A DNA stretch of 29,274 nucleotides from positions 1-29,274 of the IMG/VR virus record IMGVR_UViG_3300017706_001313; one strand, 5' to 3'. The DNA is from a virus. A model generated the notes under the pieces. The model had not been told where the DNA came from, did not search any database, and saw only the letters and a list, made by a program, of their open reading frames with translations. Shown one piece after another: positions 23,308-29,274 of this stretch. The stretch's first letter is position 1. Each line of letters begins with the position of its first letter. A program made the position numbers and the translations under genes.

Positions 23308-23338
23308 ATAGCCCCCCCTTCATGCACAAATATTCTAC

Positions 23339-23820
23339 GAGCCTTCGGCTCCAGCGATTCAGAAGCTACGCTTCGCTACGCTAAGCTACGAGCCTTCGGC
23401 TCCAGTGTTTCAGAAGCTACGCTTCGCTACGCTAAGCTACGAGCCTTCGGCTCCAGCGTTCTCAGATGCTCCGCTCCGCTCCGCTCGTCGAGCCTTCGGC
23501 TCCAGTGGTTCAGAAGCTACGCTCCGCTTCGCTCCGCTCCAGTCGCCCTTTGGGCCAGTCGCTTGAGGCTCCTGTAGGGGCTCCTTCCGCTCCGCTACGC
23601 TCCGCTACGCTGTTCTTCGAGCCTTCGGCTCCAGTGATTCAAAGGCTTCGCTACGCTCCAGTCGCCATTTTGGCCAGTAGCTTGAGGCTACTGGGGCTCC
23701 TTCCGCTCCGCTCCGCTCGTCGAGCCTTCGGCTCCAGTGGTTCATAAGCTACGCAGGTAGCCTCAAGAGCTGACGCTCCCAAGGCTCCTTCTGCTACGCT
23801 ATTCTTCGAGCCTTCGGCTC
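23339..23820. repeat. Palindromic repeat cluster (GAGCCTTCGGCTC family)
   Basis: GAGCCTTCGGCTC, a 5-bp stem with a TTC loop, occurs exactly at 23339, 23390, 23441, 23490, 23619, 23722 and 23808. The first three units are 51 bases apart and include TACGCTTCGCTACGCTAAGC, itself full of small palindromes. A second motif, CAGTCGCC(C/A)TTT(G/T)GGCCAGT, occurs at 23540 and 23659. The stretch is richer in GC than the late genes and full of short runs of GCTCC and GCTACG. Frames across it give only repetitive peptides (RAFGSS, SEATLRYAK), which I take as by-products. Similar clusters of small palindromes are known from some organellar and cyanobacterial genomes; origin here is unknown. Confidence 0.9.
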
Positions 23821-24343: not shown

Positions 24344-24443
24344 TTTTTTGGGATAGAAAATTGTATCATCACTGTCAAGAGTTGCTCGTACCTGCGCTTG
24401 CCTCTTTGACAGCAATAATTCATTTTTCTATTGTCCCCAAAAA
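24344..24443. repeat. Long imperfect hairpin, possible structured RNA
   Basis: The left arm (24344-24381, TTTTTTGGGATAGAAAATTG to ACTGTCAAGAG) pairs with the right arm (24402-24443, CTCTTTGACAG to CTATTGTCCCCAAAAA) with a few bulges. The loop is GTTGCTCGTACCTGCGCTTGC-like, of about 20 bases. The 286-base gap between the two flanking genes holds no other gene. It may be the end of the upstream transcript, a leader structure or a small RNA. Confidence 0.55.
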
Positions 24444-24872: not shown

Positions 24873-25454
24873 ATGAAAATTCCAGCACACACACGAGTAC
24901 GCCGAGATTGGCGAGCCACCATCGAACCGACAGGTAAAGTAAAGCCAGCAGCGCAGCGCCGAGACCTTGCTCGCTTCATGCCTCGCAACAGCAACGAGCT
25001 CGACAGGCTAGCCAACAACGACCTTGCAAGGGCCACAGTTTCCGCCCACCTTGAACAAGCCATCGGCAAATGCAACCGAGCATTCACCAGCACAACCGCC
25101 AATCAATGGGAGATCGTGGAATGTTCTTTGCATCACATCACACAAGACGACGTAGACGCAGCACGAGAGGCAGCCGAGGAGGCTACCGCCCTATTCACTC
25201 AAGAAAGCCGAGACTTCCAACAGGCCCCACTTGATGAAATGGCCTTGCGGAGCAACGAGATAGAGGAGTATTTACCTTTTGCGCCCAGCGTTCACCAGCT
25301 ATGCAAGGAAAACGGCAAATGGCCTTTTGAGAACCATGTTGACGCTGACTTGCTAGAAAAAGAGTACATTAGACAAGCTCGACAAGATCAGCCCCCACAG
25401 CTTGCAACTGGCAGCCGCCGACGCCAGTATTTCAAACAGCCAGTTTTAGACTAA
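24873..25454 (+). CDS. Unknown basic-to-acidic helical protein (193 aa)
   Basis: MKIPAHTRVRRDWRATIEPT opens a basic N-terminal part with RRDLARFMPRNSNELDRLAN. A helical Ala/Glu-rich centre follows (DDVDAAREAAEEATALFTQE, about 91-110). The C terminus, with RQARQDQPPQLATGSRRRQY, is basic. No catalytic motif or membrane segment is seen. Its codons end in C or G far more often than those of the late genes, a possible sign of separate origin. A strong terminator follows the stop codon. Confidence 0.65.
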   Translation: MKIPAHTRVRRDWRATIEPTGKVKPAAQRRDLARFMPRNSNELDRLANNDLARATVSAHLEQAIGKCNRAFTSTTANQWEIVECSLHHITQDDVDAAREAAEEATALFTQESRDFQQAPLDEMALRSNEIEEYLPFAPSVHQLCKENGKWPFENHVDADLLEKEYIRQARQDQPPQLATGSRRRQYFKQPVLD

Positions 25455-26579: not shown

Positions 26580-26921
26580 ATGAAACAAGAAACAACAACA
26601 GCAAATCCCATGGAAGATCAAGCATTTATGGGGGATCTACCATGTGTACTCGTAAAAACAGCACAAGCCAATATCCATGTTGGTTACCTTAAACACAGAG
26701 AAGGTGATACTCTTAAACTCACCCAAGCCCGTAGGCTTTGGTACTGGAGTGGAGCGTCAGGTTGTAATCAAATTGCTGCAGAGGGTGTCAAGTTCCCAGA
26801 CAAATGTAAGTTCCCGTGTCCAGTGGATCTGGAAGTCTTCCAAGTTGTAGAAATTATTCCAGTTACTGTCAAAGCTAAGAAAAGCATTGATTCCGTAAAA
26901 GTCTGGAGAATCGACCGTTAA
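26580..26921 (+). CDS. DUF6948-like protein
   Basis: 113 residues. The block RRLWYWSGASGCNQIAAEGV (51-70), followed by FPDKCKFPCPVDLEVFQVVE (72-91) and a closing AKKSIDSVKVWRI, is the pattern I know for phage proteins of the DUF6948 type: R-L-W-Y-W-x-G-A, then A-x-x-G, then C-K-F-P, then E-I-I-P, then S-I and W. These are small beta-rich proteins of unknown function, common in tailed phages. An ACT microsatellite lies just upstream (26561-26577), and a hairpin and the GGANAC array lie downstream. Confidence 0.8.
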   Translation: MKQETTTANPMEDQAFMGDLPCVLVKTAQANIHVGYLKHREGDTLKLTQARRLWYWSGASGCNQIAAEGVKFPDKCKFPCPVDLEVFQVVEIIPVTVKAKKSIDSVKVWRIDR

Positions 26922-26931
26922 AAACATACAT

Positions 26932-26959
26932 GGGCTTTAGGTACAAAAACCTAGAGCCC
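26932..26959 (+). terminator. Hairpin between the DUF6948-like gene and the repeat array
   Basis: GGGCTTTAGGT (26932-26942) pairs with ACCTAGAGCCC (26949-26959) with one mismatch and a six-base A-rich loop. The stretch after it (TAGTTGTTATGG) is a poor U-tract, so read-through into the array is likely. The first array start codon is 8 bases beyond. Confidence 0.55.
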
Positions 26960-26967
26960 TAGTTGTT

Positions 26968-27210
26968 ATGGTAACCCCAAAATCAGACGGATACGGACAC
27001 GGAAACGGACACGAATACGGAGACGGATACGGATTCGGAGACGGAAACGGAGACGGAGACGGATACGGAGACGGATTCGGAGACGGAGACGGAGACGGAG
27101 ACGGAAACGGAGACGGAAACGGACACGGACACGGAAACGGATACGGACACGGAGACGGACACGGAGACGGACACGGAGACGGAAACATAAACGGCAATGG
27201 AACAGGGTAA
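26968..27210 (+). CDS. Cassette 1, Gly-X repeat protein (80 aa)
   Basis: MVTPKSDG, then (Gly-X)n with X mostly His, Asn, Asp and Tyr, ending NINGNGTG. The head differs from later cassettes (no DQGN) because its element reads GTAACCCC, with one extra C, but PKSDG remains in frame. No ribosome site is clear. It may be the oldest or promoter-proximal unit. Translation is not proven, since the hexamer leaves all frames open. Confidence 0.4.
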   Translation: MVTPKSDGYGHGNGHEYGDGYGFGDGNGDGDGYGDGFGDGDGDGDGNGDGNGHGHGNGYGHGDGHGDGHGDGNINGNGTG

Positions 27211-27463
27211 CCCAAAATCAGACGGAGACGGAAACGGAAACGGAGACGGAAACGGAAACGGAAACGGATACGGATACGAAAATGGAAACGGATACGGCAA
27301 TGGATACGGATTCGATGACGGACACGGAGACGGAGACGGATACGGACACGGACACGAAAACGGAGACGGATTCGAAGGCGGATACGGAGACAAATACGGA
27401 TATGGAGACGCAGACGGAAACGGATTCGGAGACGGAAACATAAACGGCAATGGAACAGGGTAA
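27197..27463 (+). CDS. Cassette 2, Gly-X repeat protein (88 aa)
   Basis: MEQGNPKSDG followed by Gly-Asp, Gly-Asn and Gly-Tyr pairs, with a few departures (YENGNG, FDDGHG, FEGGYGDKYG). It ends NINGNGTG. The ATG overlaps the stop of cassette 1 by 14 bases. The start has Asp2 changed to Glu through GAT to GAA. Confidence 0.42.
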   Translation: MEQGNPKSDGDGNGNGDGNGNGNGYGYENGNGYGNGYGFDDGHGDGDGYGHGHENGDGFEGGYGDKYGYGDADGNGFGDGNINGNGTG

Positions 27464-27776
27464 CACAAAATCAGACGGAAACGGATACGGATACGGAAAC
27501 GCAGACGGAAACGCAAACGGATACGGATACGGATACGGAAACGGAAACGCAGACGGAAACTCAAACGGATACGGATACGGATACGGAGAAGGAGAAGGAT
27601 ACGGATACGGAAACGGATACGGATACGGACAAGGATACAGAGACGGAAACGGAGACGGAAACGGAGACGGAAACGGAGACGGAGACGAAGACGGAGACGG
27701 AAACGGAGACGGAAACGGAGACGGAAACGGAGACGAAGACGAAGACGGAAACATAAACGGCAATGGATCAGGGTAA
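27450..27776 (+). CDS. Cassette 3, Gly-X repeat protein (108 aa)
   Basis: MEQGNTKSDG followed by the longest uninterrupted run of Gly-X pairs among the MxQGN-headed cassettes, with Ala-Asp, Ala-Asn and Gly-Glu exceptions (GEGEGYG). The end, INGNGSG, matches later units. It overlaps the stop of cassette 2 and the start of cassette 4, each by 14 bases. Confidence 0.42.
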   Translation: MEQGNTKSDGNGYGYGNADGNANGYGYGYGNGNADGNSNGYGYGYGEGEGYGYGNGYGYGQGYRDGNGDGNGDGNGDGDEDGDGNGDGNGDGNGDEDEDGNINGNGSG

Positions 27777-27868
27777 CCCAAAATCAGACGGATACGGATA
27801 CGGATACGTATACGAAAACGAAAACGGATACGGATACGGATACGGAAAAGGATACGTATACGAAAACG
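27755..27868 (+). repeat. 114-base exact direct repeat, first copy
   Basis: Identical to 28002-28115, 247 bases apart. It spans the end of one cassette, the constant element and the beginning of the next, so duplication took place in units of a whole cassette. Confidence 0.9.
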
Positions 27869-28023
27869 GAGACGGATACGGATACGGAAACGAAAACGGA
27901 GACGTAGACGGAAACGGATACGGAAACGGAAACGAAGACGGAGACGGATTCGGAGACGGACACGAATACGGATACGGAAACGGAAACGAAGACGGATATG
28001 AAAACGGCAATGGATCAGGGTAA
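27763..28023 (+). CDS. Cassette 4, Gly-X repeat protein (86 aa)
   Basis: MDQGNPKSDGYGYGYVYENE, then Gly-Tyr-rich repeats with YVYEN inserts, ending YENGNGSG. Its first 106 bases, with the 8 bases before, are repeated exactly in cassette 5, a recent duplication. Tyr is unusually abundant, which in protein form would favour self-association; that is inference. Confidence 0.42.
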   Translation: MDQGNPKSDGYGYGYVYENENGYGYGYGKGYVYENGDGYGYGNENGDVDGNGYGNGNEDGDGFGDGHEYGYGNGNEDGYENGNGSG

Positions 28024-28115
28024 CCCAAAATCAGACGGATACGGATACGGATACGTATACGAAAACGAAAACGGATACGGATACGGATACGGAAAAGGAT
28101 ACGTATACGAAAACG
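28002..28115 (+). repeat. 114-base exact direct repeat, second copy
   Basis: The second copy of the 27755-27868 segment. After it the two cassettes diverge by loss or gain of hexamers. Confidence 0.9.
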
Positions 28116-28210
28116 AAAACGGAGACGGATACGGAAACGAAAACGGAGACGTAGACGGAAACGGATACGGAAACGAAGACGGATATGGAGACGGCAATGG
28201 ATCAGGGTAA
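28010..28210 (+). CDS. Cassette 5, Gly-X repeat protein (66 aa)
   Basis: MDQGNPKSDGYGYGYVYENE, closely related to cassette 4 but shorter by 20 residues. The start is taken at the element ATG; an ATG 12 bases upstream (giving MKTA first) is in frame but lies outside the constant element. It ends DGNGSG. GGAG stands about 9 bases before the start of the next cassette. Confidence 0.42.
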   Translation: MDQGNPKSDGYGYGYVYENENGYGYGYGKGYVYENENGDGYGNENGDVDGNGYGNEDGYGDGNGSG

Positions 28211-28355
28211 CCCAAAATCAGACGGAGACGGAGACGGAGACGAATTCGGAGACGGATTCGGAAACGGAGAAGTATACGGAGACGGACACGAAAGCGGGAA
28301 CGGATACGGATACGGATTCAAAGACGGATACGAAAACGGCCATGGATCAGGGTAA
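28197..28355 (+). CDS. Cassette 6, Gly-X repeat protein (52 aa)
   Basis: MDQGNPKSDGDGDGDEFGDG, the shortest intact cassette, ending YENGHGSG. It has more departures from the hexamer than others (NGEVYG, HESGNG, GFKDGY). The terminal element reads GGCCATGG in place of GGCAATGG, which changes Asn to His without affecting the next ATG. Confidence 0.4.
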   Translation: MDQGNPKSDGDGDGDEFGDGFGNGEVYGDGHESGNGYGYGFKDGYENGHGSG

Positions 28356-28371
28356 CCCAAAATTATATTAG
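28342..28371 (+). pseudogene. Broken cassette start
   Basis: The element gives MDQGNPK but the next bases are TTATATTAG, so the frame ends after nine residues. The repeat resumes only about 110 bases later. The array was therefore interrupted here by unique DNA, or the unique DNA is older and the cassettes on both sides expanded around it. Confidence 0.6.
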
Positions 28372-28374
28372 ATA

Positions 28375-28716
28375 ATGAGCTTTAGTTATTCAGGCGAAAA
28401 TATAACGCAAACTGGTAAAAACACCGATTTAAGCGGACTGTCTGGGCTGACTGGCATAAAGACTCATGCCAATGATCAGGTTAACCCAAAATCAGACGGA
28501 TACGGAAACGGAAACGGATACGAATACGGAGACGGATACGGAGACGGATACGGAGACGGATACGGATATGGAGACGGATACGAATACGCAGACGGATACG
28601 GAGACGGACACGGAAACGGAAACGGATACGAAAACGCAGACGGAAACGCAAACGGAAACAGATACGGAGGATGCGGATACGGAAACGGATATGGAGACGG
28701 CAATGGATCAGGGTAA
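28375..28716 (+). CDS. Cassette 7, with a unique N terminus (113 aa)
   Basis: The N terminus is MSFSYSGENITQTGKNTDLS, followed by GLSGLTGIKTHAN, then DQVNPKSDG in the same frame and Gly-X repeats with RYGGCGYGNG, ending DGNGSG. The unique section has normal composition and is clearly not made of the hexamer. NITQTGxNTDLSGL resembles short motifs I recall from phage or adhesin structural proteins, but I cannot confirm this. It is the cassette with the best case for being a real gene, and may show how the head of the family first looked. Confidence 0.5.
   Translation: MSFSYSGENITQTGKNTDLSGLSGLTGIKTHANDQVNPKSDGYGNGNGYEYGDGYGDGYGDGYGYGDGYEYADGYGDGHGNGNGYENADGNANGNRYGGCGYGNGYGDGNGSG
28574..28691 (+). 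repeat. 118-base exact direct repeat, first copy
   Basis: Identical to 28884-29001, 310 bases apart. It includes the non-hexamer bases GGAGGATGC, so the identity is by descent and not by simple repeat convergence. Confidence 0.9.
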
Positions 28717-29026
28717 CCCAAAATCAGACGGATACGGACACGGATACGGACACGGATTCGAATACGGAGACGGATACGGAGACGGATACGGAGACGGATA
28801 CGGAGACGAATACGCAGACGGATACGGAGACGGACACGGAAACGGAAACGGAGACGGAGACGGAAACGGAGACGGAAACGGACACGGATACGAATACGCA
28901 GACGGATACGGAGACGGACACGGAAACGGAAACGGATACGAAAACGCAGACGGAAACGCAAACGGAAACAGATACGGAGGATGCGGATACGGAAACGGAT
29001 ACGAAAACGGCAATGGATCAGGGTAA
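28703..29026 (+). CDS. Cassette 8, Gly-X repeat protein (107 aa)
   Basis: MDQGNPKSDGYGHGYGHGFE, then Gly-Asp/Gly-Tyr repeats and an end that repeats that of cassette 7 (RYGGCGYGNGY, then ENGNGSG). A 118-base exact duplicate of cassette 7 lies at 28884-29001. The extra GGA of GGAGGATGC breaks the hexamer phase by 3 bases but keeps the codon frame. Confidence 0.42.
   Translation: MDQGNPKSDGYGHGYGHGFEYGDGYGDGYGDGYGDEYADGYGDGHGNGNGDGDGNGDGNGHGYEYADGYGDGHGNGNGYENADGNANGNRYGGCGYGNGYENGNGSG
28884..29001 (+). repeat. 118-base exact direct repeat, second copy
   Basis: The second copy of 28574-28691, near the end of cassette 8. Confidence 0.9.
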
Positions 29027-29264
29027 CCCAAAATCAGACGGATACGGACACGGAAACGGAAACGGATACGGAGAAGGAAACGTATACGGAAACGGACACG
29101 GATACGGGGACGGGTATACATATAAACTCGTATTCGTAGATGGATACGAAAGCGGAAACGGATACGGAAATGGATACGAAAACGGAGACGGAGACGAAAA
29201 CGGAGACGGAAACGCAAACGAAGACGGATCAGACGGAGATGAAGATGGATATGGATCAGGGTGA
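29013..29264 (+). CDS. Cassette 9, Gly-X repeat protein (83 aa)
   Basis: MDQGNPKSDGYGHGNGNGYG opens the unit. The middle holds a non-repeat stretch, YTYKLVFVDGYES, from DNA unlike the hexamer. The end is DEDGYGSG with TGA in place of TAA. The codon frame stays open across the odd stretch, which is an argument that the frame matters. Confidence 0.42.
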   Translation: MDQGNPKSDGYGHGNGNGYGEGNVYGNGHGYGDGYTYKLVFVDGYESGNGYGNGYENGDGDENGDGNANEDGSDGDEDGYGSG

Positions 29265-29274
29265 CCCAAAATCA
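29251..29274 (+). CDS. Cassette 10 start, cut by right edge
   Basis: The element gives MDQGDPKS and then the window ends. GGGTGA replaces GGGTAA, so Asn5 becomes Asp and the upstream stop becomes TGA. The array continues beyond the window. Confidence 0.35.

Follow-up and report, generated by a model that had tools for sequence, protein, structure and literature searches.

An array of Gly-X genes behind a DUF6948 gene

The window analysed here, the whole IMG/VR record IMGVR_UViG_3300017706_001313 (29,274 bases), is a podovirus-like phage fragment with a portal protein (phrog_332), a terminase and a major head protein (PF19821). Its final 2.3 kb contain nine complete open reading frames (ORFs) and the start of a tenth, all on the + strand, that encode proteins in which glycine alternates with a variable residue (Gly-X). 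This array is built of (GGANAC)n hexamers: tandem pairs of the hexamer (GGANACGGANAC) were found 143 times, on the + strand only, as compared to 0.03 expected occurrences. A gene encoding a protein of 113 amino acids (26580-26921, + strand) ends 46 nt upstream of the array, and this protein is a true member of the Pfam family DUF6948 (PF22253; E 4.4e-22, 78.5 bits versus a gathering cut-off of 27, profile positions 4-85 of 85). A previous sequence-only reading had reported at least nine Gly-X units of one degenerate hexamer that run off the window just past a DUF6948-like gene, and all this was confirmed. The same reading took the array for a strange lone element and the neighbouring gene for a landmark. 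This interpretation is superseded: the adjoining DUF6948 gene is the key to the finding.

Adjoining Gly-X units meet in a conserved junction of 29 bases, within which the ATG of the following unit precedes the stop codon of the preceding one by 11 nt. The junction ATGGANCAGGGTRACNCAAAATCAGACGG occurs seven times exactly (with the degenerate positions allowed in the search) and once with three mismatches, whereas 0 occurrences are expected. As ATGGATCAGGGTAACCCAAAATCAGACGG it closes one frame (..GGA TCA GGG TAA) and opens the next (ATG GAT CAG GGT AAC..), and adjoining units share 14 nt (ATGGATCAGGGTAA). The units had been described as following one another without a gap; they are indeed contiguous at most joins, but they actually overlap, and one join is interrupted. 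The same Gly-X phase is kept from the opening to the closing motif in all units, over about 312 hexamer slots.

Unit 1 (26968-27210, 80 amino acids) opens with MVTPKSDG and closes with GNGTG. Unit 2 (27197-27463, 88 amino acids), which starts 11 nt before the stop codon of unit 1, runs from MEQGNPKSDG to GNGTG and is followed by unit 3 (27450-27776, 108 amino acids), unit 4 (27763-28023, 86 amino acids, MDQGNPKSDG to GNGSG), unit 5 (28010-28210, 66 amino acids if counted from the MDQG start) and unit 6 (28197-28355, 52 amino acids), which closes with GHGSG. Unit 7 (28375-28716, 113 amino acids) opens with MSFSYSGENITQTGKNTDLSGL; it is followed by unit 8 (28703-29026, 107 amino acids), unit 9 (29013-29264, 83 amino acids, with the closing GYGSG and a TGA stop codon) and the start of the tenth unit (ATGGATCAGGGTGACCCAAAATCA, 29251-29274), which is cut by the end of the contig. 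The opening MDQGNPKSDG is present in five units, alongside the forms MEQGNPKSDG and MEQGNTKSDG and the different starts of units 1 and 7, and the closings GNGSG and GNGTG share the array with GHGSG and GYGSG.

The only broken join is that between units 6 and 7, where about 107 bp of foreign sequence (28364-28470, + strand) encode the N-terminus of unit 7 (MSFSYSGENITQTGKNTDLSGLSGLTGIKTHAN); it is this interruption that makes the N-terminus of unit 7 differ from those of the other units. The encoded peptide is similar to the N-terminus of the structural protein 54 of Synechococcus phage Syn5 (60.7% identity over 28 amino acids, E 8e-3), which suggests that either a piece of a structural gene was captured here or the two proteins have an N-terminal motif in common. 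With 95.7% identity over 185 nt, units 4 and 5 are recent duplicates; units 7 and 8 share 92% over 223 nt. The contig terminates within the array at position 29274, and the number of copies is therefore a lower limit.

The Gly-X gene accompanies a predicted Sm-like partner

Loci were fetched by similarity to DUF6948 alone, without reference to Gly-X, from a viral set and from a set of genome assemblies and metagenome-assembled genomes (MAGs). A Gly-X ORF was located directly downstream of the DUF6948 gene in 12 of the 13 testable viral loci and in 35 of the 39 testable assembly and MAG loci; the latter stem from many phyla, and some are labelled archaeal. By comparison, only 21 of 1215 control ORFs in the DUF6948 loci were followed by a Gly-X ORF. 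The same arrangement was observed for a sister family with the consensus IVVLDRGFVYVG..RxWGTTKGLGEL (75 of 76 testable loci), and in the scan of this family a Gly-X ORF was present on the upstream side in only two cases. The query for the sister family was derived from loci that had originally been retrieved via Gly-X repeats, and the 80 loci include a few of the same contigs; this set is therefore only nearly independent. Taken together, the Gly-X ORF directly follows the partner gene on the same strand in 122 of 128 testable loci. In the reverse direction, a partner gene was present within 600 bases in 155 of 194 Gly-X loci; of the 39 without one, about 18 had no upstream sequence.

The two genes are tightly spaced: the Gly-X start overlaps or abuts the stop codon of the partner gene in 162 of 192 pairs and is mostly located 10, 13 or 16 nt ahead of it, close to the 11-nt geometry of the joins between Gly-X units in the window. 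An obligate programmed frameshift that fuses both proteins is disfavoured, since the Gly-X frame relative to that of the partner varies: among 199 pairs, 153 have a shift of -1, 31 one of +1 and 15 none. A natural fusion of both parts was found in locus L182, where the Sm-like core is followed by the Gly-rich tail in one chain.

The pair is present in several phages that are isolated or annotated, namely Vibrio IKEMa6-1, Dickeya Setonix, Iodobacter PhiPLPE, Chlorobiaceae CV-1-33 and MW202898, and also on a Monoglobus plasmid. In PhiPLPE, an unannotated Gly-X ORF lies right behind gp84 (L279:1190-1430), and in CV-1-33 the same position is annotated in an apparently wrong frame (MAMAMALAMA...). 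In phages of many bacterial phyla the Gly-X gene almost always occurs only once behind its partner, but tandem copies are not a peculiarity of the window: there are five in L197, four in L163 and L160, and three in L053 and L232, with the window having the most found. In other arrays, among them L197, L163 and L053, every copy retains boundaries and a start site of its own, with a start and a stop signal (L197: ..GTTGAGGAGTAGCATGGG..; L163: ..GGATGAAGGAGAAGCATAACATG..). Multi-copy tandem Gly-X genes recur in unrelated phages. The neighbours of the pair are regulators, recombination genes (RecE, ERF, RecT) and replication genes, which are typical of early regions; there are no tail genes among them, and the earlier suggestion that the repeat varies a surface protein finds no support. 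Many contigs end a few hundred bases past DUF6948, in or just before Gly-X (L010, L017, L021, L293, L294, L296, L297, L305, L307, L322, L324). It appears that phage contigs commonly break because of Gly-X repeats.

Both partner families are predicted to adopt an Sm/LSm-like fold, taken here as a five-stranded, strongly bent beta barrel. Single-chain AlphaFold2 models were obtained with a pLDDT of 96.4 for DUF6948 and 92.2 for the sister family, and the top matches of both models in the PDB are overwhelmingly Sm/LSm proteins (TM up to 0.63 on the query and up to 0.73 on the target). They include 3by7, an Sm-like protein of putative cyanophage origin; it is among the closest folds to both families even though the identity is only 8-16%. 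The prediction is consistent for both families. The partner proteins have a mildly basic pI (median 8.3-8.4; 8.7 for the DUF6948 protein of the window) whereas the Gly-X proteins of the window are acidic (pI about 4.05-4.15), so that the pair is oppositely charged. The Pfam family DUF6948, of which the window protein and proteins of phages and MAG contigs with a downstream Gly-X gene are members, covers the Sm-like partner alone; neither the Gly-X gene nor the sister family (WGTTKGLGEL motif) has its own Pfam family.

Coding character of the Gly-X genes

Since the hexamer repeat leaves several frames open, open frames alone are weak proof of coding. The substitutions in the window are more telling. 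In the glycine slots, GGA is replaced by GAA (Glu) 41 times but by AGA (Arg) only three times (p 1.6e-9); in the X slots, a change of the second base to T yields almost only Phe (11 TTC, 1 CTC), and no stop codons arise in any slot. Moreover, the glycine codon differs from phage to phage: GGC prevails, whereas 34 segments use GGA, 14 use GGT and 9 use GGG, and the X codons end with C or T. Within a gene, in contrast, one glycine codon dominates (median 98% versus 46% in ordinary ORFs), and in the window the synonymous sites are nearly fixed, with deviations of 5% and 10% at positions 3 and 6 of the hexamer. This uniformity bears the mark of hexamer slippage or recombination that is still under way. 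As the codons differ between the phages but are uniform within a gene, the conserved feature is the protein pattern rather than a DNA or RNA motif. The bias for Glu over Arg, the codon variation and the conserved start and stop signals argue for selection of Gly-X at the protein level. The proposal of a family of disordered Gly-rich proteins thus gains support, while that of a structural DNA element is contradicted by the replacement of GGANAC by GGCNAC, GGCNAT or GGTNAC elsewhere.

Aromatic residues or histidine occupy a median of 38% of the X positions, and basic residues are few. The Gly-X gene had no match above the cut-off of any curated family; weak, composition-driven matches to Pfam TrAA12, to the sulphur globule protein and to an NCBIfam serine-rich family were discounted. 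In places, Gly-X segments are joined to C-terminal domains that resemble DUF7666 or DUF6745, below the curated cut-offs, and this suggests that Gly-X may be a reusable module. Such cases are L144:4834-5286, L081:8504-9340, L282:4261-5022, L112 and L058; in addition to the DUF7666-like and DUF6745-like domains, they involve an unnamed domain in Monoglobus and gut phages.

Relatives of the window and neighbouring features

Relatives of the window with 90-97% identity, found via the portal protein, end at or before window position 24379, short of the array. The exact junction had no match among viral contigs, and thus no close relative of the array is among them. A distant blastn search of the array against phages gave no matches, nor did a search with the 193-amino acid early gene at 24873, and a protein search with one Gly-X unit gave no confirmed relatives because the peptide is of low complexity. 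Between the structural and early regions, positions 23335-23757 hold tandem 51-base repeats (CTACGAGCCTTCGGCTCCAGCGTTTCAGAAGC...). Blastn of the window against the relatives L023 and L026 gave multiple, differing matches here, indicating that the repeat region is variable among close relatives. The early region also contains a DUF7300 gene (PF23974, 26070-26342) upstream of DUF6948.

Discussion

The reading that we favour, and to which we give an even chance, is that the array arose when the Gly-X member of a widespread phage gene pair was amplified in tandem; in this pair, an Sm-like core would receive an acidic, disordered tail in trans. The Sm-like protein would form an RNA-binding ring, and the Gly-X chain would be the tail of this ring, encoded by a separate, translationally coupled gene. 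Its polyanionic Asp and Glu residues may stand in for nucleic acid at the core, which is slightly basic, and in this way tune the binding and release of RNA, and glycine together with Tyr and Phe would render the chain prone to condensation. The pair might handle phage or host RNA early in infection, with coupled translation holding tail and core in proportion. In the phage studied here, the amplification of the Gly-X gene would provide a higher dose and variety of tails, and ongoing slippage or recombination of the hexamer would result in the synonymous homogeneity.

There are precedents for such a tail. The acidic disordered tail of Hfq mimics nucleic acid in E. coli (PMC5606850), and the Hfq protein of Acinetobacter baumannii has a long tail of GGFGGQ repeats with an acidic tip that is needed for function (PMC11617691). 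Both cases support the idea of a tail acting in trans, as do the opposite charges of the partner (pI about 8.4) and Gly-X (about 4). The adjacency of the two genes, their overlap, the conservation of Gly-X as a protein, the other arrays, the fold predicted for both partner families and the L182 fusion also speak for this reading. As in Hfq, a predicted Sm-type core would be combined with a Gly-rich tail that bears aromatic and acidic residues, and the L182 fusion has the same order of core and tail. In contrast to Hfq, core and tail are nearly always separate, coupled genes in the phages, and the tail gene can be amplified. Moreover, the putative phage tail is strictly Gly-X rather than GGFGGQ, there is no detectable sequence similarity, and RNA binding by the phage pair is putative. 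More tentatively, we propose an undescribed two-gene ribonucleoprotein system in phages of very many phyla, in which an Sm-like ring would be joined by a separately encoded, fast-evolving Gly-X chain of low complexity that forms RNA condensates or remodels RNA early in infection. In some phages, including this one, the chain gene would have been diversified and multiplied to give arrays of at least nine cistrons; this proposal is possible rather than probable.

Several points weigh against the favoured reading. The best Foldseek E-values of the partner models range from 1.6e-3 to 3.7e-3, none being below 0.001, and a profile of 98 partner sequences had no Sm match among the PDB sequences, with none at E<=1. 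Among the Sm-like segments examined, only L182 is a true fusion. The DUF6948 stop codon of the window and the start of unit 1 do not overlap but are 46 nt apart, with a hairpin in between (GGGCTTTAGGT-ACAAAA-ACCTAGAGCCC, 26932-26959, + strand, without a T-run; RNA fold of 26922-26975, -22 kcal/mol). Asp is absent from 4 of 184 Gly-X proteins and Tyr likewise from 4 of 184; as some members have no Asp, the acidity of Gly-X is not universal. The copy number in the window is fixed only as a lower limit, and the assembly of repeats from short reads may have changed the count. Finally, the disorder of Gly-X, ring formation, RNA binding, the interaction of Gly-X with its partner and a role in infection are steps that we infer, and the expression of the pair is putative.

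The main rival, which we regard as unlikely but which is compatible with the same anatomy as the tail in trans, is the formation of a condensate or scaffold: Gly-X would phase-separate or gel, the Sm-like protein would recruit or limit it, and RNA handling would be secondary. With glycine as spacer and Tyr and Phe as stickers, Gly-X would resemble FUS-type low-complexity domains or silk, and the high share of aromatic residues and His with few basic residues, the strict alternation maintained across phyla and the use of Gly-X as a module, at times joined to the DUF7666-like or DUF6745-like domains mentioned above, all fit this idea. However, the high content of Asp may oppose self-association, and condensation alone leaves the near-obligate Sm-like partner unexplained. 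Silk fibroin and the sulphur globule protein (PF17228) do share the alternating or dense Gly-X pattern with Tyr, but the match to PF17228 is weak and composition-driven (E 0.035, below the cut-off), and the organisms, partners and context differ. We consider it still less probable that the two proteins form a counter-defence or toxin-antitoxin-like pair, in which the basic and the acidic partner would neutralise each other or a host factor and amplification would be a dosage response. The coupling of the two genes, their opposite charges, their location in early regions, the amplification in some phages and the many phyla of the hosts would fit this idea; yet PADLOC gave no match for the window protein and only one weak match among 98 members (E 0.06), the partner looks Sm-like and unlike a toxin or an enzyme, and its near-universal co-presence with Gly-X comes without an obvious target.

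Two further explanations deny the proteins a function. The array might be a neutral product of slippage or an artefact of assembly, a reading suggested by a contig of metagenomic short-read origin that stops in the array and by adjacent units that are up to 96% alike. We hold this to be quite improbable: the overlapping start and stop boundaries are intact at all joins but one, the units differ in length and sequence, a near-obligate partner is present in more than 120 independent loci, and arrays occur in unrelated contigs. Least probable is that (GGANAC)n acts as nucleic acid, whether by sequestering a CsrA-type regulator through ACGGA motifs or as a structural repeat, with incidental frames. 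ANGGA is the recognition core of CsrA; ACGGA fits this core, and the synonymous sites in the window are nearly fixed. Even so, related genes with GGC, GGT, GGG and NAT lose the motif but keep Gly-X, the substitution bias (GAA over AGA) acts at the level of amino acids, and starts, stops and start sites are kept in independent arrays, so that this reading is largely refuted. A sponge RNA for CsrA/RsmA was rejected for the same loss of ANGGA in most related genes (GGC or GGT). A diversity-generating retroelement also appears less likely: in NAC, variation is confined to the first base, and the A that follows is kept (8% deviation); no search was aimed at a reverse transcriptase.

In the open-access literature, we found no paper that mentions DUF6948 or DUF7666 and no description of the gene pair. 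The earlier statement that no such layout has been described therefore holds within the literature searched. Even so, the layout occurs elsewhere too: DUF6948-type genes are widely followed by a single Gly-X gene, and tandem arrays have been found more than once. A near-obligate gene pair of phages and of MAG contigs assigned to many phyla, archaeal ones included, has apparently been overlooked, because Gly-X is of low complexity, often unannotated or misframed, masked by search filters and prone to break assemblies. The Gly-X arrays are a natural experiment in the evolution of low-complexity proteins, and if the partner is truly an Sm protein, phages would possess RNA chaperones of their own, akin to Hfq, whose disordered tail is unusual in that it acts in trans.

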